Shown here one piece after another: positions 38,538 to 63,063 of a DNA stretch of 64,000 bases. Under the pieces are notes generated by a model, which did no database searches, was not told the origin of the DNA, and saw only the letters and a program-made list of their open reading frames with translations. The DNA comes from Deltaproteobacteria bacterium. GTDB taxonomy: Bacteria > Desulfobacterota > Binatia > UTPRO1. Numbering within the stretch: position 1 is the first letter of the stretch; each line of letters starts with the position of its first letter. A program made the position numbers and the translations under genes. Location of the stretch: the NCBI GenBank assembly GCA_020848745.1, contig JADLHM010000092.1:1-64000 (forward strand), given 5' to 3'.

Positions 38538-38549
38538 GCCTCCACGACA

Positions 38550-38565
38550 AGCGAAGCGCGTGCCA
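38550..38565 (-). promoter_or_regulatory. Sigma-54-like -24/-12 element before the TerB/J gene
   Basis: The minus strand reads TGGCACGCGCTTCGCT, differing from TGGCAC-N5-TTGCW at one position. Its -12 GC pair would place the transcript start within 2 nt of the ATG at 38537, so it may be coincidental or give a leaderless transcript. Confidence 0.3.
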
Positions 38566-38734
38566 GCCTGGGAGGCACGTGGCGCCGCGGCGGTGTTCGC
38601 AATTCTGGCAAGAAAACGGCGGCGTGCTTCCCGAAGAACCGGACGTCGGGCCCGCGGCGTCCGCGAGGCGTCGCCATCCGGACGCGGCGCGCTCGTTGCC
38701 GTGCGGGCCCCTCGTCCTCTATAGCTCCACGTCC

Positions 38735-44035: not shown

Positions 44036-44155
44036 TCAGCCGAGGCGGAGCAGGTTCACGAGCAGGCTCGAGAAGACGACCACGTAGACGACGAGCCAGA
44101 ACATCGTGAGCGGCCAGGGAGCCGGCGTGTCGAGACGACGCGGTGCGGCGGTCAT
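44036..44155 (-). CDS. Candidate 39-residue single-span membrane protein
   Basis: ATG at 44155 to TGA gives a protein whose first 15 residues are polar/proline-rich, followed by one hydrophobic helix PLTMFWLVVYVVVFSSLLVN and a basic end. Codon choice matches neighbours. No strong ribosome site is seen. Small one-span proteins like this are often respiratory-complex or transporter accessories, but nothing here proves a role. Confidence 0.4.
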   Translation of the reverse strand: MTAAPRRLDTPAPWPLTMFWLVVYVVVFSSLLVNLLRLG

Positions 44156-44325
44156 GCGGGCTGGGGTAGGCAAGGCGCGTGCCATACCCAAGACCGTGGA
44201 AACACGGCATTCATGATTCGGGGGATTCCGAACCCCGAGAAGAATCGCCCCGCGGGGTCGCGCCGCTGGGAAAGCCGGTCCGATCCGCGCTCGCGCGGGC
44301 GGCTCCGCCCGGATAGAAGGCGCCC

Positions 44326-44855: not shown

Positions 44856-46361
44856 TCAGAACCCGTAGCGGATGATCTCCGGGTGCGCGTTCGCGTACGC
44901 GCACGCGAAATCGAGCTGGGCCCGGCTCTGGGCGTGGATCTCGAAGAGCGCCTCGCCGCGCGTCACGACGTCCCCGAGCGTCCGCAGGAGCTTCACCCCG
45001 GCGACGACGTTCGCGGGGGCGCCGGCGCGCTTCGCGACCCGCGCGATCTCCCAGCAGTCGATCTCGGCGATGCGGCCGTCGGCGGGCGCCGGGACGATCG
45101 CCCGATGCTGCGCCTCGGGCGGGAACGCGCGCCGCCCCTGCACGTCCACGATGCGCTCGAAGGCGGCGGCCGCGGCGCCCGAGTCGAGCGCCTGCTGCGC
45201 GGCGTGATAGCCGCCGGCCGCGGGCACCGCGCCGACCATCTCGAGGAGATGCGCGGCGAGGTACAGCGCCTTCTCGCGGAGGTCGCGCGGCGCGCTGCCG
45301 TCGCGCCGCAGCACGGCCAGCACGTCGAGCGCCTCCAGGCGCGGGCCGATGCCGCGGCCGATCGGGCCGCGCGCCTCGGTGACGAGCGTGTCGACGCGGA
45401 GCTCGATCGCCTCCGCGACCACGCGGAAGAGCGCCGCCAGATGCTCGGCGGCGACGTGGTCGCGGACCTTGGCGGTCGGGCCCACGGGAATGTCGATCAG
45501 CACGTGGGTCGCGCCGGCGGTCTTCTTCTTGGCGAGGATCGACGCCACCATCTGCGGCTCGGTGTCGATCTCCATCGGCCGCTCGACGGTGATCAGGATG
45601 TCGTCGGCGGGCGCGAGGTCGAGCGCCCCGCCCCACGCGATGCAGGCGCCCGCCCGCTCGACGACCCGGTGCAGCTCGGCCGGCGGCAGCGCGACCTCGG
45701 CGAGGAGCGCCATGGTGTCGGCGGTGCCGGCCGGGCTGGTGATCGCGCGCGACGAGGTCTTCGGGATCGTGACGCCGAGCGCGGCGAGGATCGGCACGAC
45801 GATCATGGTCGTGCGGTGGCCGGGAATGCCGCCGATGCAATGCTTGTCGGCGATGGGTCCGCGGCCGAAGTCGAGGCTCCGGCCGCGCGCGATCATGGCG
45901 CGGGTGAAATCGACGATCTCCCGCTCGTCGAGCGTCCGCAGCGCGCACGCCAGCACGAACATCGCGAGCTCGACCCGCGAGTAGCGGTGGCGGACGACGT
46001 CGCCGAGGATGGCGTCGAATCCGGCCCGGTCGAGCCGCTCACCACGGAGCTTCGCGCGCACGAGATCGACGCTGCGGGGCGCCGGCGCGATCGTCGCGTC
46101 GACGGGCGCGCCCTCCGGAAGCCCGAGGTCGCGGAATGCGACGTCCGAAAGCCCGATCTCGTCGGGCGCGATGAGCGCGTCGCGACAGAAGTTGAGGGTG
46201 CCCGTGAGCTCGCGCGGCTCGCCGCTCGCGGCGTCGACGCCGGCGACGCGCACGCGGTCGAGCACGTTGAAGCCGAGCGTGCCCGCGCGCACCGCCTCCT
46301 CGTGCACGAGGACGACGTGCTCGCGCATGGTGTCGATGCAGAGATGCTTCAGTCGGAACAC
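44856..46361 (-). CDS. AMP-phosphorylase-type nucleoside (monophosphate) phosphorylase
   Basis: A protein of 501 residues, the length of archaeal AMP phosphorylase (about 500) rather than DeoA (about 440). An N-terminal domain of about 85 residues precedes the helical and phosphate-binding domains. ADKHCIGGIPGHRTTMIVVP (171-190) and TSSRAITSPAGTADTM match the AMP-type site. The expected reaction is AMP + phosphate to adenine + ribose 1,5-bisphosphate. The next genes encode a beta-CASP nuclease and PRPP synthetase, which fits nucleotide recycling. GTG start with GAGGGAGG upstream. Confidence 0.85.
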   Translation of the reverse strand: MFRLKHLCIDTMREHVVLVHEEAVRAGTLGFNVLDRVRVAGVDAASGEPRELTGTLNFCRDALIAPDEIGLSDVAFRDLGLPEGAPVDATIAPAPRSVDLVRAKLRGERLDRAGFDAILGDVVRHRYSRVELAMFVLACALRTLDEREIVDFTRAMIARGRSLDFGRGPIADKHCIGGIPGHRTTMIVVPILAALGVTIPKTSSRAITSPAGTADTMALLAEVALPPAELHRVVERAGACIAWGGALDLAPADDILITVERPMEIDTEPQMVASILAKKKTAGATHVLIDIPVGPTAKVRDHVAAEHLAALFRVVAEAIELRVDTLVTEARGPIGRGIGPRLEALDVLAVLRRDGSAPRDLREKALYLAAHLLEMVGAVPAAGGYHAAQQALDSGAAAAAFERIVDVQGRRAFPPEAQHRAIVPAPADGRIAEIDCWEIARVAKRAGAPANVVAGVKLLRTLGDVVTRGEALFEIHAQSRAQLDFACAYANAHPEIIRYGF

Positions 46362-46372
46362 CCGCCCCTCCC

Positions 46373-47782
46373 TCAATCCACGCGCACGATCTCGAGGTAG
46401 CGCGGCACCGCGGCGGTCCACCCGAGCTGCTGCTCGATGGCGTCGTGGAGGCCCTGTGCCGCCGGCTCCTCGCCGTGTACGACGAAGACGGTCTCGGGCG
46501 CGCGCGGCGCGCGGCGGAGCCACGCGACGATCTCGTCGCGATCCGCGTGCACCGAGAACGCCGGCACCGACGCGACCTCGGCGCGCACGCCAATGTACCG
46601 TCCGTGCATCTTGAGCTCGCGCGCCCCGTCGGCGAGCGCCCGTCCGCGCGTGCCCTCGGCCTGGAAGCCCACCAGCAGGACGGCGTTGCGCTCGTCGGGC
46701 AGGCGGCGCGCCAGGTGGTGCAGCACGCGCCCGCCGCTCGCCATGCCAGACGCCGACACGATGATGCTCGGGCCCCTGGCGTCGTTGATCGCGATCGAGT
46801 CCTCGACGGTGTGGGCTTCGATCAGGTTTCCGGGGTCGAAGGGATCGCCGTCACCGGCGAAGTCGGGCCGGATCTCGAGGCCGCCCGCGGCGATCGCGCG
46901 CCGGTACACGTCGAGCGCGGCGAGCGCCATCGGACTGTCGACGTAGACCGGGAGGTTCGGCACCCGCCCCTCGCGGATCAGCCGGCGCAGGTGCAGGAGC
47001 AGCACCTCGGTGCGATCGACCGCGAACGACGGGATGACGATCGTGCCGCCGCGCGCCGCCGTCCGCGCGATCGTCTCCTCGAACCGCGCGAGCGCGGCGG
47101 CGTCCTCGTGGCGGCGGTCCCCGTACGTCGACTCGATGAGCACGAGGTCGGCGGGCGGCGGGTCGGCCGGCGGATTCAGGATCGGATGGTGCGGCCGGCC
47201 GAGGTCGCCGCTCACGAGGAGCGCCCGCGGCTTCGCCCCCTCGATGGCGAGCAGGACCATCGCCGACCCGAGGATGTGGCCGGCGGGCAGGAAGGTCGCG
47301 CGCACGCCGGGAGCGATCTCGATACCCTGGAAGAACGCGGCGGCGCGGAACTGGCCGAGCGCGCGCTCGGCGTCGGCGCTCGTGTAGAGCGGGAGCGCCG
47401 GCACGTGCCTCGAGGTGCCGCGCCGATTGGCGTAGCCGGCGTCCTCCTCCTGGAGGTGGGCGCTGTCCGGCAGCACGATGCGCGCGAGGGCGTGCGTGAG
47501 ATCCGTCGCGTAGATCGGGCCCCGGAAGCCGTTACGCGCGAGCGCCGGCAGGTAGCCCGAGTGGTCGAGGTGCGCGTGGGTGAGCGCGACGGCGTCGATC
47601 GACGCCGGGTCCACCGGGAACGGGCTCCAGTTGCGGAGCCGGAGAGGCTTCAGGCCCTGGAAGAGGCCGCAGTCGACGAGCACCCGCGCGCGCGGCGTCT
47701 CGAGGAGGAAGCGGCTGCCGGTGACGGTGCCCGTCGCGCCGAGGAACCGCAGGACGGGAGCGGCGGTGCGATCGCGTTTCAT
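46373..47782 (-). CDS. Beta-CASP metallo-beta-lactamase nuclease-like protein
   Basis: A protein of 469 residues. The metal motif THAHLDHSG (68-76) is followed by a further histidine in AGHILGSAM and an aspartate in VSGDLGRP. The beta-CASP insert carries ESTYGDRRHE, and SASGMASGGRVLHHLARRLP plus SVHADRDEIVAWL form the C-terminal motifs of CPSF73/RNase J-like RMMBL enzymes. RNA or RNA 3'-end processing is the known family role. It overlaps the PRPP synthetase stop by four bases. Confidence 0.88.
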   Translation of the reverse strand: MKRDRTAAPVLRFLGATGTVTGSRFLLETPRARVLVDCGLFQGLKPLRLRNWSPFPVDPASIDAVALTHAHLDHSGYLPALARNGFRGPIYATDLTHALARIVLPDSAHLQEEDAGYANRRGTSRHVPALPLYTSADAERALGQFRAAAFFQGIEIAPGVRATFLPAGHILGSAMVLLAIEGAKPRALLVSGDLGRPHHPILNPPADPPPADLVLIESTYGDRRHEDAAALARFEETIARTAARGGTIVIPSFAVDRTEVLLLHLRRLIREGRVPNLPVYVDSPMALAALDVYRRAIAAGGLEIRPDFAGDGDPFDPGNLIEAHTVEDSIAINDARGPSIIVSASGMASGGRVLHHLARRLPDERNAVLLVGFQAEGTRGRALADGARELKMHGRYIGVRAEVASVPAFSVHADRDEIVAWLRRAPRAPETVFVVHGEEPAAQGLHDAIEQQLGWTAAVPRYLEIVRVD

Positions 47783-48654
47783 GTCGACCTCGGGAGCGCG
47801 GCCGCGACGAGCGCGGCGACGCCGATGGCGTTGGTGCAATGCGGGAGCGTGTCGCACGACAGGAGACGACGGACGCCGGCGGCGCGGATGCGGGCCTCGG
47901 CGCCGGGCGCGAAGATCGCGTGGCTCACGATCGCGTCGACGGAGCGCGCGCCGGCGGCGCGGAGCGCCCGCGCCGTCGCGGCGATCGTGGCGCCGCTGCT
48001 CGCGATGTCGTCGACGACGACCGCGCGCGCCCCGCCCGCCGCCGCCGGCACCTCGACGGAGACGGCGCGGTCTCCGTGCCGCACCTTGCGCGCCACCACG
48101 GCCCGGGCGCCGGCGCCGCGCGCGATCGCCCGCACCCACGGCGCCGATTCCTCGTCGGGTCCGACGACGAACCATGCGCCGCCGCGGGAGCGCAGCCACG
48201 CCGCGAGCGCCGGCGCCGCCGACACCGACCGGCTGCGGCCCGGGACCACCTCGGCGAGGCGCCGCACCCGATGAAGGTGCGCTTCGATGGTGAGCACGCC
48301 GTCGAATGCCTCACCGAGGAGGCGCCCGACGACCCGCTGCGACACGGGCTCGCCGGGATGGAACACGGCGTCCTGCCGCATGTACGGCAGGTAGGGGGCG
48401 ACGAGCGTCACGCGCCGCGCTCCCGCGCGCCGGAGCGCGTCGGCCGCGAGCAGCACCTCGACGAGGCGCTCGTTCGGATCGGCGAGGGCCCGGACCAGGA
48501 TCGCGTGGCGCCCGACCGGCGCCCGGACCCGGACGAGGCTTTCGCCGTCGGGAAAGCGGTGCAGGTCGACCGGCACCACCCGCCGCCGCGCCGCCCGGGC
48601 GAGCGCCGCTCCGAAGGCGGACGTGTCGGGGAAGACGTGAAGGGACGCGGACAT
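47779..48654 (-). CDS. Ribose-phosphate diphosphokinase (PRPP synthetase)
   Basis: A protein of 291 residues, shorter than the housekeeping Prs (about 315). LVAPYLPYMRQDAVFHPGEP is the ATP/ribose-5-phosphate region, and ARAVVVDDIASSGATIAATA is the PRPP loop. It would make PRPP from ribose 5-phosphate and ATP, or run in reverse. This divergent paralog is typically seen next to AMP-phosphorylase-like genes, and here it is translationally coupled to the beta-CASP gene. Confidence 0.88.
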   Translation of the reverse strand: MSASLHVFPDTSAFGAALARAARRRVVPVDLHRFPDGESLVRVRAPVGRHAILVRALADPNERLVEVLLAADALRRAGARRVTLVAPYLPYMRQDAVFHPGEPVSQRVVGRLLGEAFDGVLTIEAHLHRVRRLAEVVPGRSRSVSAAPALAAWLRSRGGAWFVVGPDEESAPWVRAIARGAGARAVVARKVRHGDRAVSVEVPAAAGGARAVVVDDIASSGATIAATARALRAAGARSVDAIVSHAIFAPGAEARIRAAGVRRLLSCDTLPHCTNAIGVAALVAAALPRST

Positions 48655-49252: not shown

Positions 49253-50134
49253 TCAGCCGCGGGCGGCGCGCGCGTACTCCTCGAGGATGTCGCTCGCCGA
49301 GATCACGCCGACGACGCGCTCGCCGTCCACGACGGGCAGCGCCCGCACCCGCCGCTCCAGCATGAGCCGGGCGGCCGTGGCGGCATCGACGCCGGTGCCG
49401 ACCGTCGTCGGATCGGACGTCATGGCGGCGTTCACCTTGGTGCGGGCGAGATGTCCGACGTGCGGACCGAGATCGACGTTGCTCAACATGCCAACGAGCT
49501 TCCCGTCCTCGACCACGGGAAGATGGCGGATGCGGTGCTGCGCCATCTTCCCCCGCGCCTCCTCGAGCGTCGCGTCGGGTGCGATCGTGATCGGCACCGC
49601 GCGCATCAGCTCGCCGACCTCGCCCGGACCGGCCGTCGTCGCGGCCGCCGGCGCGCGCGCGGCCTCGGCGACGAGCGCCCCCACGTGGGGCTGCCGCTGC
49701 GCCGGCACGGTGAGCACCGGGCACGGCGCGAGCCGCGCCACCTTCGAAGCGACGCTTCCGAGTAGCAGGTGCTTCAGCCCGCTCCGCCCGTGCGTCCCCA
49801 TCACGATCACGTCGATCTGGCGCTCGGCCGCGAGCTGCAGGATCCGCAGCGTCGGCGTATCGACGCGGACGTCGACCTCGAACGCGGGCACCTCCCCGTC
49901 CCGCTCGAGGAGCGCGCGGACGTGCTGCTGCAAGCGCTCCGTCTCCTCGCGGATCCACGCCCCGTCGATGGGCGCGATCGGATACTCGGTCATGGTGTAG
50001 ACGGGCAGCGGCAGCGCATGGGTCACGAGCAGCCGTCCCTTCGCCGCGCGCGCGAGACCGCCGGCGACGCGCAGCGCCGCATCCGCGGGCGCCTCGTAGT
50101 CGACCGGCACCAGAATGTTCGTGAAGGTCGTCAT
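49253..50134 (-). CDS. Universal stress protein fused to a CBS pair
   Basis: A protein of 293 residues. Residues about 1-145 form a Usp domain with MGTHGRSGLKHLLLGSVASK. After a short linker, two CBS motifs (about 160-285) include RIRHLPVVEDGKLVGMLSNV and RVRALPVVDGERVVGVISAS. CBS pairs bind adenine nucleotides and would sense energy charge. It is the first gene of the small Usp unit, and TGGCAC lies 28 bp upstream of its ATG. Confidence 0.9.
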   Translation of the reverse strand: MTTFTNILVPVDYEAPADAALRVAGGLARAAKGRLLVTHALPLPVYTMTEYPIAPIDGAWIREETERLQQHVRALLERDGEVPAFEVDVRVDTPTLRILQLAAERQIDVIVMGTHGRSGLKHLLLGSVASKVARLAPCPVLTVPAQRQPHVGALVAEAARAPAAATTAGPGEVGELMRAVPITIAPDATLEEARGKMAQHRIRHLPVVEDGKLVGMLSNVDLGPHVGHLARTKVNAAMTSDPTTVGTGVDAATAARLMLERRVRALPVVDGERVVGVISASDILEEYARAARG

Positions 50135-50146
50135 GCGTCCCGACGA

Positions 50147-50162
50147 TGCCGCTTTCGTGCCA
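50147..50162 (-). promoter_or_regulatory. Sigma-54-like element before the Usp-CBS gene
   Basis: The minus strand reads TGGCACGAAAGCGGCA: a perfect -24 TGGCAC and a -12 GC with 10 bases between GG and GC. The predicted start is only a few bases from the ATG at 50134, at the same distance as the element before the TerB/J gene. Confidence 0.3.
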
Positions 50163-50273
50163 GGCGGAGCGCCCGTGTTTTCCCGGGCGACGGTCCCGCG
50201 CGCCTCCGAGATGCGAGAGGGCTCCTGCCCGAAATTCCCGCGTCTGGGAAGAGACGCGCGCGCGAGAAGGCGC

Positions 50274-51152
50274 CTACCCGAACGCGGAGTCGGCGGGGCC
50301 GAAGGCGTCCGGAAGCGCCAGGAGCTCGCCGTACGAGAAGACCGGGCCGTCGCTGCAGACGTCGCGGTCGTTCACGTAGCAGTGCCCGCAGAGCCCGGTC
50401 CCGCACTTCATGTAGCGCTCGAGCGCGACGTGGATCGCGCCGGGCGCGAGGCCGGCGGCGGCGAGCGCCGCGGCGGCGGAGCGCAGCATCCCCGGCGGCC
50501 CGCAGAGCGCGGCGCGCTCCGCACCCACCGCCGCGACCGCCGCCGCGACGAGCTCCGTCACCACCCCCGTCCGGCCGTGCCACCCGGGCGCCGCCTCCTC
50601 GACCGTCTCGAACAGCGCGACGTCCGGCTGGACGCGCCAGCCGGCGAGGCTCGCCCGCAGGATACGGCTCCCGGGCGTACGCGCGCCGTAGAGGATCGCG
50701 ACCGGGGTGCCCGCCGCCCGCGCCCGGAGCTGCGCGTCGATCGCGCTCCGCAGCGGAGCCAGGCCGCAACCGCCCGCGACGTAGAGCGTCGGACGATCCG
50801 CGCCGTCCTGCGGGAAGCCGCGCCCGAACGGCCCCCGGACGCCGACGCTCGCGCCCACCTCGCAGGCGAAGAACGCCCCGGTGAGCGCGCCGACCCGCCG
50901 CACGGTGAGCGTGACGGTACCGGGCGCCGCGCCCGCGCACGGCAGGTGGGCGAGCGTGAACGCGGCCTCACCGTGGCCGAGGAGCGAGAGCATCACGAAT
51001 TGCCCGGGCCGCGCGGCGTCGAGCGCGGGGACGGGCGTCGCGAGGCCGAGCACGAAGGTACGGGTGTCCTCGGCCTCGTCGTGCATCGCCACGACGCGAG
51101 CGGGGTGCGGCAGGGCCGCCGCGAAATCGTCGGGCGGTGCGACCACGCTCAT
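50274..51152 (-). CDS. FAD/NAD(P)-binding oxidoreductase, hydrogenase gamma-subunit type
   Basis: A protein of 292 residues of the ferredoxin-reductase/PyrK-HydG type. The FAD domain ends before RPTLYVAGGCGLAPLRSAID, which begins the NAD(P) domain. The C-terminal [2Fe-2S] ligands are in YMKCGTGLCGHCYVNDRDVC. In group 3b hydrogenases this subunit exchanges electrons with NAD(P). Here it overlaps the 4Fe-4S gene (ATGA) and belongs to a formate dehydrogenase unit. Confidence 0.88.
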   Translation of the reverse strand: MSVVAPPDDFAAALPHPARVVAMHDEAEDTRTFVLGLATPVPALDAARPGQFVMLSLLGHGEAAFTLAHLPCAGAAPGTVTLTVRRVGALTGAFFACEVGASVGVRGPFGRGFPQDGADRPTLYVAGGCGLAPLRSAIDAQLRARAAGTPVAILYGARTPGSRILRASLAGWRVQPDVALFETVEEAAPGWHGRTGVVTELVAAAVAAVGAERAALCGPPGMLRSAAAALAAAGLAPGAIHVALERYMKCGTGLCGHCYVNDRDVCSDGPVFSYGELLALPDAFGPADSAFG

Positions 51153-52180
51153 CGCTCGCCTCCGAGCGCCGCCAGGACGCCGAGCGCGCCGATCGTGCCC
51201 GGACACGCGACGTCACAGCGGCCGCAACCGACGCAGCCGAGCCGCCCCGTCGGGCCCGCGAAGTCGCGCGAGAGCTTGTGGTACCAGAAGCGCCGCACGC
51301 GATCACCCGGACGGGGCGCGGGGTGATGTCCCGAGGCCTGGCGCTGGAAGCCCTCGAGGAGGCAGCTGTCCCAGATGCGAGCGCGCGTCCCGCCCGCGCC
51401 CACCGGCTCGTCGACGACCGTGAAGCAGGTGCAGGTCGGGCAGAGGCTCGTGCAGCCGGTGCAGGCGAGGCAGCGCGGACCGACCGCCTGCCACTCCTCG
51501 TCGGCAATCGCGCCTCCCGCCGGCGCCGCGTTCATACGCGCGAGCCCGCGCGCGACGTACGGCCGCACCGGAAAGCTCGCCGCCGCCCCGGCCGCCAGCT
51601 CGGCGAGCAGGAGCGCGGTGCCGTCGTCGACCGGCGTGCTCGCCACCCCGGCGCCGTGCAGCGCCGCGACCCCCGCCGCGCTCCCCCACGCGACGACGAC
51701 GCGACCGTCCGGCAACGCCGTCAGGTTCAGGTCGAAGGGCGCGCGCGCGAACGGGCCCGCGTCGACCTCCAGACAAAAGCCGCCGGCACAGGCCCCCGAG
51801 CAGTCGAGGCCGACGAGAAAGGCCGCCGCGCGCCGGGCGCGGTACCACGGATCGGATCCGAAGTGCGCATCGAGGTGCGCGATCGCGGCGAGGTCGCACG
51901 CGCGAAGGCCGACGAAGGCGACCCGCTCGGGGCATGGGACGACGGGACGCATGGCGCCCGTGTCGTCCCAGGCGAGCACGGGCTCGCGCGGCGGCACGAG
52001 CCAGCCCTTCACCCCCGCGAGCGGCGCCGCCGTCGACCACGCGAGCGCACCCTCCCCGTTCGTCGCCGTCCAGACCGGCGCGCCCTCCACCGTGCGCGGC
52101 TCGATCACGCGCCGGTCGAGGGCGAGCGCGCGGCGGATCCGGTCCACCGCCGCCCGCGACGCGAGCACGCACGCGTCCAT
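51149..52180 (-). CDS. 4Fe-4S dicluster protein, hydrogenase beta-subunit type
   Basis: A protein of 343 residues. The C-terminal part carries two [4Fe-4S] motifs, CLACTGCTSLCPTC and CVGCGRCDVACPG, as in HydB of sulfhydrogenase and in AsrA. The N-terminal 230 residues match the family's HycB-unlike domain, with VGLRACDLAAIAHLDAHFGS. It would pass electrons between the molybdenum subunit and the flavoprotein. It shares bases with both neighbours (TGATG and ATGA). Confidence 0.88.
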   Translation of the reverse strand: MDACVLASRAAVDRIRRALALDRRVIEPRTVEGAPVWTATNGEGALAWSTAAPLAGVKGWLVPPREPVLAWDDTGAMRPVVPCPERVAFVGLRACDLAAIAHLDAHFGSDPWYRARRAAAFLVGLDCSGACAGGFCLEVDAGPFARAPFDLNLTALPDGRVVVAWGSAAGVAALHGAGVASTPVDDGTALLLAELAAGAAASFPVRPYVARGLARMNAAPAGGAIADEEWQAVGPRCLACTGCTSLCPTCTCFTVVDEPVGAGGTRARIWDSCLLEGFQRQASGHHPAPRPGDRVRRFWYHKLSRDFAGPTGRLGCVGCGRCDVACPGTIGALGVLAALGGER

Positions 52181-54204
52181 CAGCAGGCCTCCACCGCGAC
52201 CGCGCACACCTTGAGCTCCGGCATGCGGGCGATCGGATCGAGCGCGTCGTTGGTGACGAGATTCGGCGAGGCTTCGGCGAAGTGGTACGGCATCGCGACG
52301 ACGCCCGGCGGGACGTCGTCCGACACGATGGCGCGCGTCGTCACCTCGCCGCGCCGCGAGCGCACGCGGACGCAAGCGCCGGTCGTGATCCGCCGGCGCG
52401 CGGCGTCGCTCGCGTGCATCCACACGAGACCGAGCGGGTTCTCGCGCTCGAGGAGGGGCGCGCGCCTGGTCATCGACCCCGATCCGTACTGGTGGTGCAG
52501 CCGGAAGGTCGTGAGCTGGAGCGGGTACTCGGCATCGGGAAGCTCCGCGGGCGGCGTCTGGTCGACCGGGATCAGCCGGCCGCGTCCGCGCACGCAGCTC
52601 GCCACGTGCAGGCGCGGCGTACCCGGATGCGCGGGCGTGGGACACGGCCAGCAGAGCCCGCCGCTCGCCCCGATCCGAGCGTGGCTCATGCCTCCGTAGA
52701 TCGGCGTCAGCGCCGCCATCTCGGTGAAGACCCCGGCCGCATCGCGGAAACCCATCGGCCGCCCGAGCCGCGCCGCGAGCGCTTCCAGCATCTCCCAGTC
52801 GGTCCGCGCCTCTCCCGGCGGCGCCACGGCGCGCCGCACCCGCTGCACGCGCCGCTCGGTCGACGTGAACGTCCCGTCCTTTTCGGCGAAGCTCGCCGCC
52901 GGCAGGACGATGTCGGCGCACGTGGCGGTCTCCGTGAGGAAGAGCTCGGCGACGATCAGGCAGTCGAGCCGCCCGAGGGCGCGCGCGACGAAGCGTCCGC
53001 CGGGATCGGTGACGACGGGATCCTCGCCGATCACGAGCAGCGTCTTCAACCGCCCGTCGTGCGCGGCATGCTGCATGGAGAGCGACGTGAGCCCCGGCGC
53101 GGACGGCAGCGCGACGCCCCACGCGGCCTCGAAGCGGCGCCGCGCGGCCGCGTCGTCGACCGGCTGATACCCAGAGTAGACGTCCGGGAGCGCGCCCATG
53201 TCGCACGCGCCCTGCACGTTGTTCTGCCCGCGCAGCGGGTTCACCCCGCCGCCGATCGCTCCGACGTTTCCCGTCACGAGCGCGAGGTTCGAGAGCGCGA
53301 TGACGGTCTCGGTGCCCGAGACGTGCTGGGTGACGCCGAGCCCGTACGCGAGCCAGCCGCGCCGGCTCGCGGCGTAGAGCCGGGCCGCGTCGACGATGGC
53401 CGCGGCCGGGACGCCGGTCACGCGCGCCGCCTCGTCCGGCGTCCACCTGGCGAGCGCCGCCCGGAGCGCGTCGACGTTCTCGCAGCGCGCGTCGAGATAC
53501 GCGCGATCCTCCCATCCATGGGCGAAGATCGCGTGCAGCATGCCGTTCACGAAGGCGATGTCGGTGCCGAGCCTGATCTGCGCGTGCAGGTCGGCCGCGC
53601 GTGCGAGGCGGGTGCGCCGCGGATCGACGACCACCAGCGGGACGCCGCGCTCGTGCGCGGCCAGGATGCGGGCGCCCAGGATGGCGTGGTTCTCGGTGAC
53701 GTCGGCGCCCACGACGAGCAGACAGTCGGTCTCGTCGACGTCGGCGATCGGGTTCGTCATCGCGCCCGAGCCGAGGGTCCGGCGGAGTCCGGCGACCGAC
53801 GGCGCGTGACAGACGCGCGCGCAGTGGTCGACGTTGTTCGTCCCGAGCACCGCGCGCGCGAACTTCATCGCCGCGAAGGCGTCCTCGTTGGTCGCGCGCG
53901 CGCTCGCGACGACCCCGACCGCATCCGGGCCGCCCTCGTGGCGCGCCGCCGCGAGCGCCTCGGCGGCGGCGGCGAGCGCCACGTCCCATGCGACCGCCTC
54001 GAGCCGCCCGTTCCGACGCAGCAGCGGCCGCGTCAGGCGCTCCGGGCTCGCGATGAACTGCGCCGCGTTCCACCCCTTCACGCAGAGCTGCCCGCGTGAC
54101 ACCGGGTGCAGGCGCTCCGGCGCCACCCCGACGACCCGTCCCCCGGCAACGTCGAGGACGAGCCCGCAGCCGACCGCGCAGAAAGGACAGGTCGTCGTGG
54201 TCAC
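52180..54204 (-). CDS. Molybdopterin oxidoreductase, formate dehydrogenase alpha type
   Basis: A protein of 674 residues from a GTG at 54204. The N-terminal [4Fe-4S] ligands are C6, C9, C13 and C41 (CPFCAVGCGL, GQLCVKG). The active-site loop reads VDHCARVCHAPSVAGL, with C132 in the selenocysteine/cysteine position and H133 next to it, as in formate dehydrogenases. Molybdopterin motifs QNNVQGACDMGALPD and NPLGLVWMH are present. Substrate is probably formate. It is the first gene of the alpha-beta-gamma unit. Confidence 0.88.
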   Translation of the reverse strand: MTTTTCPFCAVGCGLVLDVAGGRVVGVAPERLHPVSRGQLCVKGWNAAQFIASPERLTRPLLRRNGRLEAVAWDVALAAAAEALAAARHEGGPDAVGVVASARATNEDAFAAMKFARAVLGTNNVDHCARVCHAPSVAGLRRTLGSGAMTNPIADVDETDCLLVVGADVTENHAILGARILAAHERGVPLVVVDPRRTRLARAADLHAQIRLGTDIAFVNGMLHAIFAHGWEDRAYLDARCENVDALRAALARWTPDEAARVTGVPAAAIVDAARLYAASRRGWLAYGLGVTQHVSGTETVIALSNLALVTGNVGAIGGGVNPLRGQNNVQGACDMGALPDVYSGYQPVDDAAARRRFEAAWGVALPSAPGLTSLSMQHAAHDGRLKTLLVIGEDPVVTDPGGRFVARALGRLDCLIVAELFLTETATCADIVLPAASFAEKDGTFTSTERRVQRVRRAVAPPGEARTDWEMLEALAARLGRPMGFRDAAGVFTEMAALTPIYGGMSHARIGASGGLCWPCPTPAHPGTPRLHVASCVRGRGRLIPVDQTPPAELPDAEYPLQLTTFRLHHQYGSGSMTRRAPLLERENPLGLVWMHASDAARRRITTGACVRVRSRRGEVTTRAIVSDDVPPGVVAMPYHFAEASPNLVTNDALDPIARMPELKVCAVAVEAC

Positions 54205-54291: not shown

Positions 54292-54780
54292 TCAGCGACG
54301 CCGTCCACGGTGTCCTCCCTTGCCGCACCCGCCGACGGCCGGCGCGCGCACCGTCAAGACCGGCACGGGCGCGTGGCGCACGACCTTCTCGGCGACGCTG
54401 CCGATCAAGAGGTGCGCGAGTCCGGTCCGGCCGAGCGTGCTCATCACGATCACGTCGGCGCGCTTGGCGGCGTCGAGGATCGCGGGCACGGCTTCGCCCG
54501 TCACGGCGCGGCAGGCGACGCGCTTCGCACCCGCGCCGAGCGCCTGCCGCGCCACCTCGGCGAGCCGCGCCTCGCGCTCGCGGGCGATCTCCGCCGGCGG
54601 CGTCCAGGCGATCTCTTCCCGGGTCGGATAGCCGGGGCCGGTGTAGAACGGCGTGAGCACGTGCAGGAGCGTGATGCGCCCCTCATGGCGGTCGGCGAGC
54701 GCGGACGCCACGCGCAGCGCGTGGGTGGCGTTCGGCGAGAGGTCGTGCGGCACGAGGATGCGCCGGAATCGCGTCGTCAT
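54292..54780 (-). CDS. Universal stress protein (UspA family)
   Basis: A protein of 162 residues starting MTTRFRRILVPHDLSPN. The ATP motif MSTLGRTGLAHLLIGSVAEK and the strand VPVLTVRAP are complete. It precedes the formate dehydrogenase gene by 87 bp on the same strand. The chosen ATG begins the family domain; the open frame upstream is not conserved. Its last residues form a glycine/arginine tail. Confidence 0.88.
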   Translation of the reverse strand: MTTRFRRILVPHDLSPNATHALRVASALADRHEGRITLLHVLTPFYTGPGYPTREEIAWTPPAEIAREREARLAEVARQALGAGAKRVACRAVTGEAVPAILDAAKRADVIVMSTLGRTGLAHLLIGSVAEKVVRHAPVPVLTVRAPAVGGCGKGGHRGRRR

Positions 54781-55009
54781 ACCCTCAGCACATTCCAAGA
54801 TCCCTGCCACGCCGTGCGCAGCGCCAATCGCGCAACCCCACGCGACTCGACACGCCGCCGCTTGGCGCGGCCGGGAATGCGAGGCCGTACATTCGCAGCC
54901 CTGGGAACGGCGCGCGGCGGCGCGCGCGACCACGCACATGGTCCGCGCCTTCGAGCACGCCCGCGCCGCGCTCGGGCTCGACACGTCGCCGCCGCACGAC
55001 CGGGACTCA

Positions 55010-56787: not shown

Positions 56788-57666
56788 CTACGGCGCGCGC
56801 TTCAGGTAGGCGACGATCGCGCGCACCTCGGCGGGCGTCAGCACGCGCCGGAAGTGCGGCATGGCCGGCCGCTTGGTCGCGAGCATGTGCCAGACCGCCG
56901 TCCGCACCTGCTCCGGGTCGCGGCGCCGGAAGTAGGCGCGGTCGAACACGACCGCCGGCCGCTCGCCCTCCTCGGCGAGGCTGCCGGCGCCGCGTCCGTC
57001 GTCGCCGTGGCAGGCGGCGCAGTAGCGGTCGTAGAGGACGTAGCCGGGCGAGAGCAGCCGCACGAACGCGACCAGCGAACGGAGCTCGCCCGCGGCGATC
57101 GGCGGCCCGATGGCCGGCATCCCGCCGCGTCCGTGGCTCGCGAGGACGCCGAGATCCTTCTCGTCCACGCTCGCCTGGAAGGCCGGGTCGGAGAGGTCGC
57201 GCGGCGTCCGCGCGCCCGGCGGCAGCGTCAGCTCGGGCGTTCCGGTGCGGCCGTGGCAGAGCTCGCAGCGGTCGACGTACACCGCCTGCCCCTCCTCGAC
57301 GCGCCGCCACTCGATCGTCGGCAGCCGCTCGAGGTAGGCGGCGATCGCCTCCACCTCGCGGGCCCGCGATCGCAGCCGCTCCGGGTCGAGCGCCAGCTCG
57401 AGCGGCACGCCGCTCCGGATGCGCCGCACGATGTCCTCGGTCGGATAGCGATCGAGGAAGCCGCGCCGCAGGTCGCTCGGCGGGCTCGCGAAGAGCGACG
57501 CGTCGGGCCCGTCGCCGCGGCCGGTGACGCCGTGGCAGCGCTCGCAGTTCTCCGCGTAGAGGGCGCCCCCATCGGGAGCCTCCGCCCGCGCCGACCCGCC
57601 CGCGAGGAGGCCCGCGAGCACCAATGCCGCTGCCGCCGCCAACCGCCCGATCCGTTCCATCCTCAT
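56788..57666 (-). CDS. Triheme cytochrome c, periplasmic
   Basis: A protein of 292 residues with a signal peptide ending near GGSARAEA. Three class I heme domains follow: CERCH (41-45), CELCH (134-138) and CAACH (216-220), each with a plausible axial methionine (for example GGMPAIGPP and PAMPHFRRVL). It resembles the cytochrome at 60.7 kb and would carry electrons in the periplasm. GGAGGT lies four bases before the ATG at 57666 and ten before a second ATG at 57660, so either may be used. Divergent from the sigma-54 regulator. Confidence 0.88.
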   Translation of the reverse strand: MRMERIGRLAAAAALVLAGLLAGGSARAEAPDGGALYAENCERCHGVTGRGDGPDASLFASPPSDLRRGFLDRYPTEDIVRRIRSGVPLELALDPERLRSRAREVEAIAAYLERLPTIEWRRVEEGQAVYVDRCELCHGRTGTPELTLPPGARTPRDLSDPAFQASVDEKDLGVLASHGRGGMPAIGPPIAAGELRSLVAFVRLLSPGYVLYDRYCAACHGDDGRGAGSLAEEGERPAVVFDRAYFRRRDPEQVRTAVWHMLATKRPAMPHFRRVLTPAEVRAIVAYLKRAP

Positions 57667-57888
57667 GCGCACCTCCAAGAGCAAGCGTGCCGCCAACCCG
57701 CCCGCCGCGCCCCGCCGTGCCGGCGTTCCGAGCGATGGGACGACCCGCCCCCCGACAAGCGGCCTTTTTCCGAGGCCTGGGAACGATCCACGCCCCGGCG
57801 CGGCTCCGCGCGCGGCACGTCTCTTGGAAGGCAGGCCGGCGACGTCCGCTTGCGATCCGCGAGACCCAGGCCCTATGTGACCGCCCCC
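57667..57888. promoter_or_regulatory. Divergent control region between cytochrome and sigma-54 regulator
   Basis: The 222 bp gap must hold promoters for both genes. On the plus strand CGGCACGTCTCTTGGA (57813-57828) partly resembles a sigma-54 site, but its -12 is GG instead of GC. Nothing stronger was found. Confidence 0.3.
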
Positions 57889-59256
57889 ATGAGCGCCGAC
57901 CAAGCCCCGAAGGGCTCCATCCTCATCGCCGAAGACGAGACCGCGGTGCGCGAGAGCCTCGCCGAGGTGCTGCGTGACGAGGGCTACGAGGTGACCGCCG
58001 TCGGCGACGGCGACGCCGCCATCGCCGCCCTCGACAGCCAGGAGGTCGACCTCGTCATCTCGGACCTCCGGATGCCCGGCGCCGACGGCCTCACGGTGCT
58101 GTCGCACGCGCGCAACGTGTCCCCCCAGGCGTTCGTGCTCCTCATGACGGCCCACGCGACGGTCGAGACGGCCGTCGAGGCCTTGCAGCGCGGCGCCCAG
58201 GACTATCTCCTGAAGCCGCTCATCTTCGACGACGTCCTCCACAAGATCGCGCACCTCCTGCAGCACCGCCAGGTCGCGTGGGAAAACCAGCTGCTGCGCA
58301 GCCAGGTAACCAAACAGTGGGACTTCGACAACCTGGTCGGGCGCTCGGGGGCGATGCGCGACGTGATGAAGCTCGTGCAGCGCGTCGCGCCGACCAAGAG
58401 CACCGTGCTCATCACGGGCGAGAGCGGCGCCGGCAAAGAGGTCGTCGCGCGCGCGATCCACCACTTCAGCGAGCAGCGCGACCGCATCTTCCTGCCGGTG
58501 AACTGCGGCGCGATTCCCGAGAACCTCCTCGAAAGCCAGCTCTTCGGCCATCTGCGCGGGTCGTTCACGGGCGCCGTCGCCAACCAGGAGGGCCTCTTCG
58601 CGCGCGCCCGCGGCGGCACGATCTTCCTCGACGAGATCGGCGATCTGCCCCTCAATCTCCAGGTGAAGCTGCTACGGGCGATCGAGCAGAAGGAGATCCT
58701 GCCGGTCGGCGCGACCACGCCGTCGAAGGTCGACGTGCGCGTGATCGCGGCCACCAACTCGGACCTCGCGAAGGCCGTCGACGAGGGCCGCTTCCGCGAG
58801 GACCTCTTCTATCGCCTGAACGTCGTGGGCATCGAGATTCCCCCGCTCCGGGAGCGCCGCGAGGACCTGCCGCTCCTGATCGAGCACTTCGTCCGCATCC
58901 ACAACCGCGAGCTCAAGCGCACCTTCAAGGGCGTCGACGGCGCGACCATGAAGATCCTGATGGCGTCGCCCTGGAAAGGCAACGTGCGCGAGCTCGACAA
59001 CGTGATCGAGCACGCGATGATCCTCGGCGAGGGGGAGTGGATCACCCCGGCCGACCTGCCCCGCGCGCTCAAGGGCGACGCCGTGGTCGGCGCGCCGACC
59101 GGCGAGGGCCTCCGCGAAGCGATGCGCTCGTACGAGAAGGCCCACATCCAGTCGGTGCTCCTCAAGGTCGACCACGACAAGAAGCAGGCGGCCGAGATCC
59201 TCGGCGTGTCGCTCTCGTCGCTCTACCGGAAGATCGAGGAGCTCGAGATCTCGTAG
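57889..59256 (+). CDS. NtrC-family sigma-54-dependent response regulator
   Basis: A protein of 455 residues. The receiver has phospho-acceptor D59 in VISDLRMPGADG. The AAA+ domain (about 145-385) has Walker A GESGAGKE, the sigma-54 contact loop as GSFTGA (GAFTGA variant), and Walker B GGTIFLDEIGDLP. The C-terminal Fis-type helix-turn-helix ends KKQAAEILGVSLSSLYRKIE. It would activate sigma-54 promoters when phosphorylated, most likely by the globin-coupled kinase downstream. Confidence 0.94.
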   Translation: MSADQAPKGSILIAEDETAVRESLAEVLRDEGYEVTAVGDGDAAIAALDSQEVDLVISDLRMPGADGLTVLSHARNVSPQAFVLLMTAHATVETAVEALQRGAQDYLLKPLIFDDVLHKIAHLLQHRQVAWENQLLRSQVTKQWDFDNLVGRSGAMRDVMKLVQRVAPTKSTVLITGESGAGKEVVARAIHHFSEQRDRIFLPVNCGAIPENLLESQLFGHLRGSFTGAVANQEGLFARARGGTIFLDEIGDLPLNLQVKLLRAIEQKEILPVGATTPSKVDVRVIAATNSDLAKAVDEGRFREDLFYRLNVVGIEIPPLRERREDLPLLIEHFVRIHNRELKRTFKGVDGATMKILMASPWKGNVRELDNVIEHAMILGEGEWITPADLPRALKGDAVVGAPTGEGLREAMRSYEKAHIQSVLLKVDHDKKQAAEILGVSLSSLYRKIEELEIS

Positions 59257-59404: not shown

Positions 59405-60730
59405 ATGCCGTCCTCCAATGACGAGCGCCCGAAGGCGGGGGCCGGCGATCCGGGCGGCACGGCTCCGGTCCTGACGGCCTCGAACCTCCTCGGCCGGATC
59501 GGCCTCGACGGGGCGGGCTGCGCGCGCCGCCTCGCGTTCCTCTCCTTCGATGCCGCCGACGTCGAGAACCTCGCCAAGCTGCGGACCTTCGCGCATGCGA
59601 ACGTCGACGGGATCGTCGACGACTTCTACGGACACCTGCTCTCGTTCGAGGAGACCCGCCGCCTGCTCGCGGACCCCGACAGGGTCGCGCGGCTCAAGAA
59701 GGTCCAGCGCGAGTACTTTCTGCGCATGCTCGACGGTGATTTCGGGCGCGACTACTTCGAGAGCCGTCTCCGCGTCGGTGCCGCGCACGCCTGCACCGAC
59801 CTCCGGCCGGAGTGGTACCTCGGCACGTACTCGCTCTACCTCCAGCTCCTCGCCGAACGGCTCCGCGAGCACTACCACGACGACCCCGACATGCTGCTCG
59901 CCCTCCTCGGCTCGTTCACCAAGGTCGTGTTCCTCGACATGGGCCTCGCCATCGACGGCTACATCCTGAGCGGCTACGTCGACCGCACGCTCGCGCAGGA
60001 CTACCGCCGCATGGCCGAGGTCGCCGAGCAGGCGCTCGACGAGAAGGCCGAGCTCGAGCAGGCGAAGGCCGACCTCACCGGCATGATCGTCCACGACCTG
60101 AAGGGCCCGCTCGGCGGCATCCTCGCGGTCACCCAGCTCGCGCTCCGCAAGGCGGGCGGCGCGCCGACCGACCGCCACTTCGCGCAGATCCAGCGCAGCG
60201 CCCAGGACCTGATGCGGATGATCGAGAACCTGCTCGAGATCGACCAGATGCAAGAGGGCCGGCTCGAGCTGCGCCTGGAGCCGGTCGCCGTCGACGGCCT
60301 CATCGCCGAGTGCGGGGCGGAGTACCGGGCCGCGGCCGAGATCGCCGGGATGACGATCACCGTCGCGGCCGATGCGGCGCTTCCGATCCTGATGACCGAT
60401 CGCTGGCTCCTCCGCCGCGTGCTCAACAACCTGGTGGTGAACGCCATCCGACACAGCGCCGCGGGCGCGATCGAGCTCGGCGCGCAGATGGCGAACGGGC
60501 ACGTCGAGCTCCGCGTCCACGACAGCGGCCGCGGCATCGCTCCCGAGGAGCAGGCGGGCCTCTTCGAGCGCGCGCGCCGCCGACGCGGGGCCCATCGCGA
60601 AGACACGGGCCTCGGGCTGGTGTTCTGCAAGATGGCGTGCGAACGGATGGGCGGCTCGATCGCCATCGAGAGCGCGCCCGGCAGCGGCACCAGCTTCGTG
60701 ATCACCCTGCCGGCCGAGGCGTCGCTCTAG
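59405..60730 (+). CDS. Globin-coupled sensor histidine kinase
   Basis: A protein of 441 residues without membrane segments. Residues about 40-195 form a protoglobin/globin-coupled sensor domain, with the proximal heme histidine H128 in RVGAAHACTDLRPEWYLG. HisKA follows with H230 in IVHDLKGPLGGIL, then HATPase boxes NNLVVNAIRHSA, DSGRGIAPEE and TGLGLVFCKMACERMGG. It is a likely soluble sensor of O2, NO or CO. It lies 148 bp after the sigma-54 regulator and 13 bp before the triheme cytochrome. Confidence 0.9.
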   Translation: MPSSNDERPKAGAGDPGGTAPVLTASNLLGRIGLDGAGCARRLAFLSFDAADVENLAKLRTFAHANVDGIVDDFYGHLLSFEETRRLLADPDRVARLKKVQREYFLRMLDGDFGRDYFESRLRVGAAHACTDLRPEWYLGTYSLYLQLLAERLREHYHDDPDMLLALLGSFTKVVFLDMGLAIDGYILSGYVDRTLAQDYRRMAEVAEQALDEKAELEQAKADLTGMIVHDLKGPLGGILAVTQLALRKAGGAPTDRHFAQIQRSAQDLMRMIENLLEIDQMQEGRLELRLEPVAVDGLIAECGAEYRAAAEIAGMTITVAADAALPILMTDRWLLRRVLNNLVVNAIRHSAAGAIELGAQMANGHVELRVHDSGRGIAPEEQAGLFERARRRRGAHREDTGLGLVFCKMACERMGGSIAIESAPGSGTSFVITLPAEASL

Positions 60731-60743
60731 CGGGGAGGACGAC

Positions 60744-61670
60744 ATGGGGAGCGGAGCGCGAAGGCTGGCGGTGGTGGCGATGCTGATCGGCGGCGCGGCC
60801 CTCGCGTTCGCCGGATGCCGGCCGCCGGCGCCGAGCGCCCCGCCCGCGCGCGTCGCCACGGTCGCGGATTGGTCGGTCGCGCGCGGCGCCGTGCTGTACG
60901 CATCGTACTGCGGCGGATGCCACGGACCGTCGGGGCACGGCGACGGCCCGGTCGCCGGCGTGATCGACCTCCGTCCCGCCGACCTCCGCGCGCCCGGCCT
61001 CCTCGACCGCAACAGCGACGACGAGCTCATCGCGCGCCTCCTGCACGGAACGCCGCTCCGCTCGACGCCGCGGCGGAACGCGGTCGCCGAGGACCTCGAG
61101 GCCGACGCGATCAGCGCCTACCTGCCGACGATCTCGTACGCCCCCTGGGAGATCCTGCGCGTCGGCCGCTTCGTTTTCGAAGGCGCCTGCGCGCCCTGCC
61201 ACGGCGCCTATGGCCAGGGCGAGGGCGTGCTCGGCGCCACCAACGAGCCGCCGCCCCCGAACCTCATGGTCGCACGCGAACGCCACGGCGACCGCACCCT
61301 CGAGCGCATCGCGATCGAGGGGATCGGCACCATGCCCCCGCTCGCCGACACCTTCGAGCCCGGCGAGCTGCGCGCGCTCGTCGCCTACGTGCGGCACCTC
61401 TCGAAGGGGTATCGCCTCTACGACACCTACTGCGCCGCCTGCCATGGCGACGACGGCCGCGGCGTGCACCCGGAAGACCTCCTGCCGCCGGCGACGAAGG
61501 CGCCGGTGATCGGCGCCGAGACCGTGAAGCGGCTCGGACCCGCCGCGACGCGCACCCGGGTCCTCCACATGCTGCGGCGCGAGTCCGGGCGCATGCCGCA
61601 TTTCCAGGGTACGCTCACCGACGCGCAGCTGCGGGACGTCTTCGCGTACCTGCGCCACGAGTCGCGCTGA
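60744..61670 (+). CDS. Triheme cytochrome c lipoprotein
   Basis: A protein of 308 residues. The signal peptide ends ALAFAGC (lipidation C25). Three heme motifs are CGGCH (56-60), CAPCH (149-153) and CAACH (230-234), with candidate axial methionines in GTMPPL and GRMPHFQ. It parallels the triheme protein at 56.8 kb but is membrane-anchored. GGGGAGGA precedes the ATG by four bases. It is probably cotranscribed with the globin kinase and followed by the CBS gene. Confidence 0.9.
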   Translation: MGSGARRLAVVAMLIGGAALAFAGCRPPAPSAPPARVATVADWSVARGAVLYASYCGGCHGPSGHGDGPVAGVIDLRPADLRAPGLLDRNSDDELIARLLHGTPLRSTPRRNAVAEDLEADAISAYLPTISYAPWEILRVGRFVFEGACAPCHGAYGQGEGVLGATNEPPPPNLMVARERHGDRTLERIAIEGIGTMPPLADTFEPGELRALVAYVRHLSKGYRLYDTYCAACHGDDGRGVHPEDLLPPATKAPVIGAETVKRLGPAATRTRVLHMLRRESGRMPHFQGTLTDAQLRDVFAYLRHESR

Positions 61671-61693: not shown

Positions 61694-62296
61694 ATGGTGG
61701 TCCGCGATTGCATGACGACGACCGTCGAGACCGTGAAGCCGGACGACGACGTCGCAACCGTGCGCGAGGTGCTCCGCCGCCGCCGCATCCGCCAGATACC
61801 GGTCGTCGCCGCCGGCCGCGTGATCGGCATCATCACCGACCGCGACGTCCGGGCCGTCACCGACGCCCGCACCACCGTCGACGCGGTCATGACGCCGACC
61901 CCCGCGACCGTCGCGCCCGACACCCCCGTCGAGGTGGCCGCCGCGACGCTGCGCCAGCGCAAGATCGGCGCCCTCCCCGTCGTCCTCGACCACGCGCTGG
62001 TCGGCATCGTGAGCGAGAGCGATCTCCTCGGCGCCCTCGTCGATCTCTGCGCCCGTCTCGAGCAGACCACCGTCCTCGCCCTCGAGTGCGACGAGGACGC
62101 GAGCGCCGTCTCGCGCATCCGCGAGATCTTCGGACGCCACGGTGCCACCGTCGCCTGGATCAGCTCGGTCCGCACGCGCGGCGGCAAGCAAGCGATCAAC
62201 GTCCGCGTCCGCATGCCCCCGGAGCGCGGCGCCACGGAGCTCCTGGCCGACGCGGGCTTCCGCGTCGTGTCGTGCGTCGCAAGTCCGAAGGGGTAG
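61694..62296 (+). CDS. CBS-pair protein with C-terminal ACT-like domain
   Basis: A protein of 200 residues. Two CBS motifs (about 1-120) include RIRQIPVVAAGRVIGIITDR and KIGALPVVLDHALVGIVSES. Residues about 125-195 resemble an ACT-like fold found in AcuB-type proteins (SAVSRIREIFGRHGATVAWI). CBS pairs bind adenylates, so it could report energy charge. It lies 23 bp after the triheme cytochrome gene. Confidence 0.85.
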   Translation: MVVRDCMTTTVETVKPDDDVATVREVLRRRRIRQIPVVAAGRVIGIITDRDVRAVTDARTTVDAVMTPTPATVAPDTPVEVAAATLRQRKIGALPVVLDHALVGIVSESDLLGALVDLCARLEQTTVLALECDEDASAVSRIREIFGRHGATVAWISSVRTRGGKQAINVRVRMPPERGATELLADAGFRVVSCVASPKG

Positions 62297-62384: not shown

Positions 62385-62654
62385 GTGACGACCGTCGGCA
62401 TCCGCGAGCTCAAGGAATCCGTCAGCGACATCTTGCGCCGCGTGCGCGAACGGGACGAGACGATCGAGATCTCCTATCGCGGGGAGGTCGTCGCTCGCAT
62501 CGTCCCGGTAAGACGCGAGCGCTCGCAGGCGGGTGCGCGGCGGCGCGCGCGTGCCGTGTGGAACGACATCGACCGCGTCGCCGACGAGATCAGCGCCCGC
62601 TGGCCACGTGGGGTCGGCGCCGTCCGAGCCATCCGCGAGACCCGGCGTGGATGA
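62385..62654 (+). CDS. Phd/YefM-type antitoxin
   Basis: A protein of 89 residues from a GTG preceded by GAGGAGG. The N-terminal Phd fold contains TVGIRELKESVSDILRRVRE and EISYRGEVVARIVPV. The basic C-terminal part would bind the toxin. It overlaps the VapC gene by 8 bp, the usual antitoxin-first order. Confidence 0.85.
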   Translation: MTTVGIRELKESVSDILRRVRERDETIEISYRGEVVARIVPVRRERSQAGARRRARAVWNDIDRVADEISARWPRGVGAVRAIRETRRG

Positions 62655-63063
62655 CGTCGTCGTCGACGCCAGCGTGTTCGTGAGCCGGCTGCTTCGCACC
62701 GACCCCAACCACAGCGTCACGTGCGCGTGGTTCGAGAGCCGCGACCGCGCGGACGGACTGCTCGTCGTTCCGGCGCTCATGCCTCCGGAGGTCGCGGGGG
62801 CGATCGGACGCCGTATCCGCGATTCCCGCGTGACGCGCCGCGCGGTCGAGAAGCTGCTGCGGATCCCCGCGCTGCGCGTCGTCGCGGTCGATCGGGCGCT
62901 CTCCGGCCGCGCGATGACGCTCGCGGCCGAGCTCCGGCTGCGCGGCGCCGACGCGATCTACGTCGCGGTCGCGCAGCGCCTCGAGCTTCCCCTCGTCACC
63001 TGGGACCGCGAGCAACACGATCGCAGCGGTCAGACCATCTCCGCGCGCAGACCGACGGTCTGA
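62647..63063 (+). CDS. VapC-like PIN-domain ribonuclease toxin
   Basis: A protein of 138 residues from a GTG. The PIN acidic residues are visible: D in VVVDASVFVSRLL, E in LMPPEVAGAI, D in RGADAIYVAVAQ and D in LVTWDREQ. VapC toxins cut tRNA or rRNA. It is translationally coupled to the Phd-type antitoxin gene upstream. Confidence 0.87.
   Translation: MDDVVVDASVFVSRLLRTDPNHSVTCAWFESRDRADGLLVVPALMPPEVAGAIGRRIRDSRVTRRAVEKLLRIPALRVVAVDRALSGRAMTLAAELRLRGADAIYVAVAQRLELPLVTWDREQHDRSGQTISARRPTV

Follow-up and report, generated by a model that had tools for sequence, protein, structure and literature searches.

Globin kinases have been tied to sigma-54 transcription before. In the Nmp system of Myxococcus xanthus a globin kinase acts on an NtrC-like sigma-54 activator with two relay proteins between them (PMC6211767, PMC11841059). 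The protoglobin kinase NmpU transfers phosphate to NmpS (REC-HK) and to the first of the two receivers in NmpT (REC-REC) but not to NmpR, which is phosphorylated by NmpS (PMC6211767). Normal autophosphorylation of NmpU requires heme, and the NmpR regulon includes genes for a CBS protein and a universal stress protein, a cbb3 oxidase and hemN/hemerythrin (PMC11841059). The NmpU-to-NmpR pathway is conserved in Anaeromyxobacter (PMC6211767, PMC11841059), and at the loci of that genus examined here the genes for the globin kinase and for REC-REC, REC-HK and NtrC proteins stand together (fully read in one of them, L091). The second close relative is AfGcHK of Anaeromyxobacter sp. Fw109-5, which has Tyr45 as its distal tyrosine and His99 as its proximal histidine; its O2-bound and Fe(III) forms are active, whereas the Fe(II) form is not (PMC8697598).

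The DNA analysed here, which we call the window, is a 64,000-nucleotide stretch from a Deltaproteobacteria bacterium of the class Binatia. A preliminary description of its globin kinase and adjacent regulator called the joining of a heme-gas sensor to sigma-54 an uncommon pairing; this was too strong, as NmpRSTU had already been published. Beyond the Nmp work, among the papers listed in literature searches on globin-coupled or heme-based sensors together with NtrC or sigma-54, no title or abstract opening describes a globin kinase with an NtrC partner.

Globin kinase and neighbouring genes

The kinase (GcHK) and its key positions are as follows.

59405-60730, + strand: GcHK, soluble protoglobin–HisKA–HATPase_c histidine kinase, 441 aa (ATG start, Pfam, PDB matches, AlphaFold model)
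59522-59965, + strand: protoglobin (heme sensor) domain (PF11563, E 1.2e-37 in genome search)
59627-59629, + strand: Y75 codon, opposite distal Tyr45 of AfGcHK (alignment; invariant 21/21)
59786-59788, + strand: H128 codon, opposite proximal His99 of AfGcHK (alignment; invariant 21/21)
60092-60094, + strand: H230 codon, phospho-acceptor His in the H-box HDLKGP (HisKA match; invariant 21/21)
60104-60106, + strand: G234 codon (H+4), site of the phosphatase Thr/Asn in HisKA kinases (sequence; role from PMC3510030)

Pfam matches, all above their gathering scores, place Protoglobin at residues 40-187 (E 2.8e-37), HisKA at 221-285 (E 1.9e-9) and HATPase_c at 332-438 (E 3.5e-24), and a profile search of the organism's 4.88-Mb genome found GcHK to be its sole protoglobin. 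A scan of hydrophobic 19-mers found no membrane segment in GcHK (maximum Kyte–Doolittle score 1.75, inside the globin), so the protein is fairly called soluble, as it had been at the outset. The histidine first proposed as proximal, H128, does align with His99 in the globin domain of AfGcHK (PDB 5ohe), and Y75 with Tyr45; the equivalents of both are unchanged in all 21 GcHK sequences of the window's type.

Sequence matches to the N-terminal part in the PDB are HemAT, AfGcHK, a globin sensor, an anti-anti-sigma factor and Tlr1989. Comparison of a predicted structure with protoglobins, the check that the preliminary description had proposed, gave a globin fold: the AlphaFold model, built on an alignment of four sequences (the window's and three from Anaeromyxobacter), has block pLDDT values of 78-95 across residues 51-180, save 69 at 131-140, and its best PDB matches by Foldseek are the globin domains of AfGcHK and HemAT. 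In the same list stands 2bnl, the N-terminal domain of RsbR, along with phycobiliproteins and further globin-like folds; the phycobiliproteins and the further globin-like matches we read as a common fold and no more. Because a globin fold alone is no proof of heme, the RsbR match raises the prospect that the domain, as in RsbR, is a scaffold free of heme or blind to ligand, in a kinase that senses another cue. The invariance of the proximal His and distal Tyr (21/21) and the strong Protoglobin match argue against such a scaffold, which we consider very improbable. With a protoglobin fused to a signalling output, both heme-pocket residues in place and a globin fold, GcHK has the make-up of a globin-coupled sensor predicted to bind heme, and it shares the soluble globin–HisKA–HATPase architecture of AfGcHK.

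Its neighbours in the window include an NtrC-type regulator, cytochromes and stress-related genes.

57889-59256, + strand: NtrC-type response regulator with REC, sigma-54 activation AAA+ and Fis HTH domains; likely partner of GcHK (Pfam)
60744-61670, + strand: triheme cytochrome c with an N-terminal signal/lipobox-like stretch, LAFAGC (sequence, domain search)
61694-62296, + strand: twin-CBS-domain protein (domain search)
56788-57666, − strand: another triheme cytochrome c, encoded divergently to NtrC (start set by the sequence, with GGAGG ahead of the ATG)
54292-54780, − strand: universal stress protein (USP), a predicted target; its gene lies 5′ of the formate dehydrogenase genes and shares their strand
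50274-54204, − strand: formate dehydrogenase, with alpha (52180-54204), 4Fe-4S (51149-52180) and FAD/NAD (50274-51152) subunits (domain searches)
49253-50134, − strand: USP-CBS protein, predicted target (domain search)

The regulator, already described as a sigma-54 activator adjacent to the kinase, proved to be one by its REC, AAA+ sigma-54 and Fis HTH domains, and the organism has one rpoN gene. Its loop GSFTGA we take to be of the GAFTGA-like kind found in sigma-54 activators. The NtrC gene ends 148 bp 5′ of GcHK. On the other side, the triheme cytochrome stands where it had been placed, its ATG (60744) 13 bp past the kinase stop and preceded by GGGGAGG, with three CXXCH motifs in the product.

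Further genes lie around these. Among the best family matches of the subunits beside the formate dehydrogenase alpha subunit are subunits of sulfhydrogenase and of anaerobic sulfite reductase, under the NCBIfam cut-offs. Directly 3′ of the CBS gene, a small gene that by eye resembles an antitoxin gene occupies 62385-63063 together with a PIN-domain gene; the pair was not seen at the corresponding place in two genomes of the same genus, G001 and G002. A row of genes at 44856-48654 (AMP/thymidine phosphorylase-like, beta-CASP metallo-hydrolase, PRPP-synthetase-like) keeps its order in both of those genomes, and the beta-CASP hydrolase recurs near NtrC or GcHK in other families (L041, L042, L048, L068).

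Linkage and co-inheritance of GcHK and NtrC

We compared 98 genomes of the class, including that of the window. Gene calling trained on high-GC codons overlooked genes in relatives of lower GC, and linkage was therefore taken from stop-to-stop frames and tblastn. A protoglobin match occurs in 25 of the 98 genomes, 21 of which have full GcHKs of the window's type (type-1), and an NtrC ortholog (E<=1e-150) occurs in 49. What is new here is that every one of the 21 genomes with a type-1 GcHK has the NtrC ortholog, compared with 28 of the 77 others; that the two genes lie within 1.4 kb of each other in 20 of the 21; that they do so in two gene orders; and that no linked relay was found. In 11 genomes NtrC precedes GcHK on the same strand, and in nine the two genes are divergent. 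In five of the 11 same-strand loci the genes overlap by 8-26 bases; an overlap between divergent genes in L046 arises with the chosen starts. Comparative genomics thus strengthens the case for a pairing well past a single adjacency, and the window NtrC is likely the partner of GcHK.

The exception is G001, in which GcHK and NtrC are on different contigs: NtrC lies with the cytochrome/APH/USP/FdhA side and GcHK with the cytochrome/CBS side. This split would fit a locus in which the neighbours exchange no phosphate, GcHK having some other regulator as its target and the two genes lying together as parts of one oxygen-response island. The 28 genomes that carry NtrC without a type-1 GcHK, from which it follows that NtrC can use other kinases or none, would fit it as well, as would the richness of the island in USP, CBS and cytochrome genes whether GcHK is present or not. 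We nevertheless think it quite improbable in view of the tight linkage (20/21) in two gene orders and of the trees, in which the clades of GcHK and NtrC match.

The two trees have three clades in common, and each clade has an H-box of its own: HDLKGP (7), HDLKNP (5) and HD[IV]RSP (9). Two of the three NtrC-tree groups also contain NtrCs without GcHK. The matching groups show co-inheritance, not contact, since common descent of the genomes would give the like. The H-boxes also bear on kinase chemistry, in that the window's clade has Gly at H+4. In HisKA kinases Thr/Asn at this position is reported to be required for phosphatase, not kinase, activity (PMC3510030), and the window GcHK may therefore be without phosphatase activity.

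Because NmpU does not phosphorylate NmpR in the published account, linkage need not mean direct transfer to NtrC. GcHK could instead signal to an unlinked REC-HK (NmpS-like) or receiver protein that passes the signal to NtrC, with an inverted oxygen response. Such wiring has been demonstrated in M. xanthus (PMC6211767), and four unlinked REC-HK frames in the organism's own genome (contigs C46, C110 twice and C119) could relay. An NmpS-like REC-HK (L082:742-2007; 32% identity over nearly the full length) also lies near the NtrC ortholog of another genome, G055. On the other hand, the 21 GcHK loci, read over stretches of about 7-19 kb each, showed neither a REC-REC nor an N-terminal REC-HK gene, the REC-HK of contig C46 already adjoins an NtrC of its own, and GcHK and NtrC genes overlap at five loci. 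We judge an indirect circuit of the Nmp kind to be unlikely, though the most serious of the alternatives considered here.

We rejected the identification of the window NtrC with NmpR: it is 43% identical to the Anaeromyxobacter NmpR homolog (47% for the C46 NtrC beside the REC-HK), and NmpR and the C46 NtrC group outside the 52 orthologs, both on long branches.

Other sensors occur near the NtrC ortholog. A globin kinase of a second type (L051, in G007) lies 46 bp 5′ of one, and protoglobin–STAS proteins stand in place of the globin kinase in two genomes, 2.5-2.9 kb from NtrC (L035:4184-5128 and L044:2618-3556). NtrB-like kinases are close to NtrC at nine loci; the one scanned (L074) has PAS domains, and the other eight are classed as PAS-HK by similarity of the kinase part only. 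Nineteen NtrC orthologs have no recognised partner.

At receiver helix-1 positions 15, 18, 19 and 22, presumably specificity sites as in the OmpR/EnvZ literature, all 21 GcHK-linked NtrCs have Ala/Gly-15, an acid at 18, Ser-19 and an acid at 22. The same sites are more varied in the nine NtrCs close to other kinases. In Anaeromyxobacter, the two receivers whose homologs NmpU is known to target have acid-18 and Glu-22, and the NmpR homolog has Val-18 and Thr-22. The pattern favours a GcHK–NtrC partnership but is suggestive only, because most of the 19 partnerless NtrCs resemble the GcHK-linked set at helix 1.

Candidate enhancers and sigma-54-like elements

Comparison with G001 and G002 revealed conserved sigma-54-like elements 5′ of the divergent cytochrome/NtrC, USP-CBS, USP and TerB genes and, near those of cytochrome/NtrC, USP-CBS and USP, an inverted repeat, TTCCC-N6-GGGAA, which we propose as a candidate enhancer.

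57768-57783, no strand: candidate enhancer between the cytochrome and NtrC genes, reading TTCCGAGGCCTGGGAA, one mismatch from TTCCC-N6-GGGAA (kept in 3/3 same-genus genomes)
50235-50250, no strand: perfect candidate enhancer TTCCC-N6-GGGAA, 5′ of the USP-CBS gene (pattern scan)
54892-54907, no strand: candidate enhancer, 1 mismatch, 5′ of the USP gene (pattern scan)
57680-57696, − strand: sigma-54-like element TTGGCGGCACGCTTGCT, 3 mismatches, 5′ of the divergent cytochrome (pattern scan, genus comparison)
57812-57828, + strand: weak sigma-54-like element GCGGCACGTCTCTTGGA, without the -12 GC, 5′ of NtrC (mostly kept 3/3)
50147-50163, − strand: sigma-54-like element CTGGCACGAAAGCGGCA, 5′ of the USP-CBS gene (conserved in the genus)
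54794-54809, − strand: sigma-54-like element TGGCAGGGATCTTGGA, without the -12 GC, 5′ of the USP gene (mostly kept 3/3)

No sigma-54-like element was found within 300 bp 5′ of GcHK, and genome-wide the strict sigma-54 pattern is unenriched (7 against 13 in the control). Within 37427-38566, sigma-54-like elements lie 42 bp 5′ of a BON-domain gene and 29 bp 5′ of a TerB-like gene, the latter fully kept in G001 and with three positions changed in G002. Another, ATGGCACGCGCCTTGCC (44155-44185, − strand), has an ATG about 30 bp downstream with no called gene, and is also present in G001.

Allowing one mismatch, the window holds four enhancer copies where 1.0 is expected, and three of these lie 5′ of USP-CBS, USP and cytochrome/NtrC; the NmpR operator GCGCA-N5-TGCGC is unenriched there (15 against 18 expected). 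In 666 kb of sequence from 55 class loci, perfect TTCCC-N6-GGGAA occurs 13 times, compared with 1.2 in shuffles and 0.65 by the genome-wide rate, and the other half-site spacings tested gave 0-2 copies. Upstream of NtrC (450 bp), a site within one mismatch is found at 11 of 51 loci with the N6 spacing and at 0-4 with other spacings, and nine of the 11 sit at -84 to -158; the window, L030 and L075 in this count belong to one genus. The count uses 51 of the 52 orthologs, the upstream region in L042 being too short, and leaves aside L052-L054, which have no NtrC frame.

Across the organism's own genome there are 10 perfect copies against one in the control. At five of the 10, a sigma-54-like element lies 49-92 bp away and is followed by a gene start; the genes encode an acyltransferase, a tandem USP, the window's USP-CBS protein and uncharacterised proteins of 290 aa and 90 aa, the 290-aa gene being divergent from an NnrS gene. 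Without the discovery site the figure is four of nine, which at a chance of about 0.0034 per site gives P ~2e-8, for a distance slot chosen post hoc. Composites of the enhancer with GGC-N8-TGC number 53 in six genomes against 14 in the reversed control, a suggestive excess given that the patterns were chosen after examples had been seen. As a marker of NtrC presence the enhancer count was rejected, the relation being weak (mean 5.2 with and 3.9 without NtrC, P 0.026; control-subtracted P 0.07). The palindrome also outnumbers its control in genomes that have no NtrC ortholog, and other proteins may thus bind such sites.

Proposed circuit

Our best explanation, which we hold to be probable without being firm, is a direct heme-gas or redox GcHK–NtrC two-component switch with TTCCC-N6-GGGAA enhancers and a hypoxia-type sigma-54 regulon. 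In the manner of AfGcHK and NmpU, GcHK would use heme to sense gas or redox state in the cytoplasm: the ligand or redox state of an H128-bound heme would alter autophosphorylation of H230. The phosphoryl group would pass from H230 directly to the receiver of the NtrC at 57889-59256, which once phosphorylated would bind the enhancers and act with sigma-54 polymerase. The predicted activated set, of a low-oxygen or energy-stress kind, comprises the triheme cytochrome, NtrC itself and the universal stress and CBS proteins, and probably also the formate dehydrogenase genes.

A direct pathway with the sign of AfGcHK would turn its targets on in air. Genes for USP and CBS proteins and for formate dehydrogenase point instead to low oxygen, which would mean either that the sign differs here or that a relay exists as in Nmp. 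A more specific version of the direct switch, in which a relay-free unit running from heme to sigma-54 is inherited through much of the class, acts at TTCCC-N6-GGGAA enhancers and, in the window clade, uses a kinase without the phosphatase residue so that gas or redox state sets the kinase rate alone, is plausible but in our estimate falls slightly short of an even prospect. If true, it would be a very simple coupling of a globin gas sensor to sigma-54 transcription. The analysis yields a concrete candidate operator and a list of targets.

Comparison with known systems

The window pair resembles FixL–FixJ in joining a heme-based kinase to an adjacent transcriptional response regulator, but FixL has a heme-PAS in place of the protoglobin and FixJ is not known as a sigma-54 activator. 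With AfGcHK the window kinase shares an N-terminal protoglobin followed by a kinase, the aligned Tyr and His and the top fold match. The differences are that it is 29% identical to the Anaeromyxobacter homolog compared, to which the second-type kinase L051 is about equally close; that this homolog has Asn at H+4 where the window GcHK has Gly; and that AfGcHK is linked to REC-REC and REC-HK genes, GcHK to an NtrC gene. NmpRSTU is alike in its globin kinase, its NtrC-like sigma-54 activator and the CBS and universal stress proteins among its targets, which are here predicted. It is unlike in that the window locus is without linked NmpS and NmpT genes, the window NtrC is by its tree not the ortholog of NmpR, and the candidate enhancer differs from the NmpR operator. 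A direct switch would be a natural counterpart of the branched Nmp circuit, and a comparison of these circuits would be a test of how the response to oxygen comes to be inverted by a relay.
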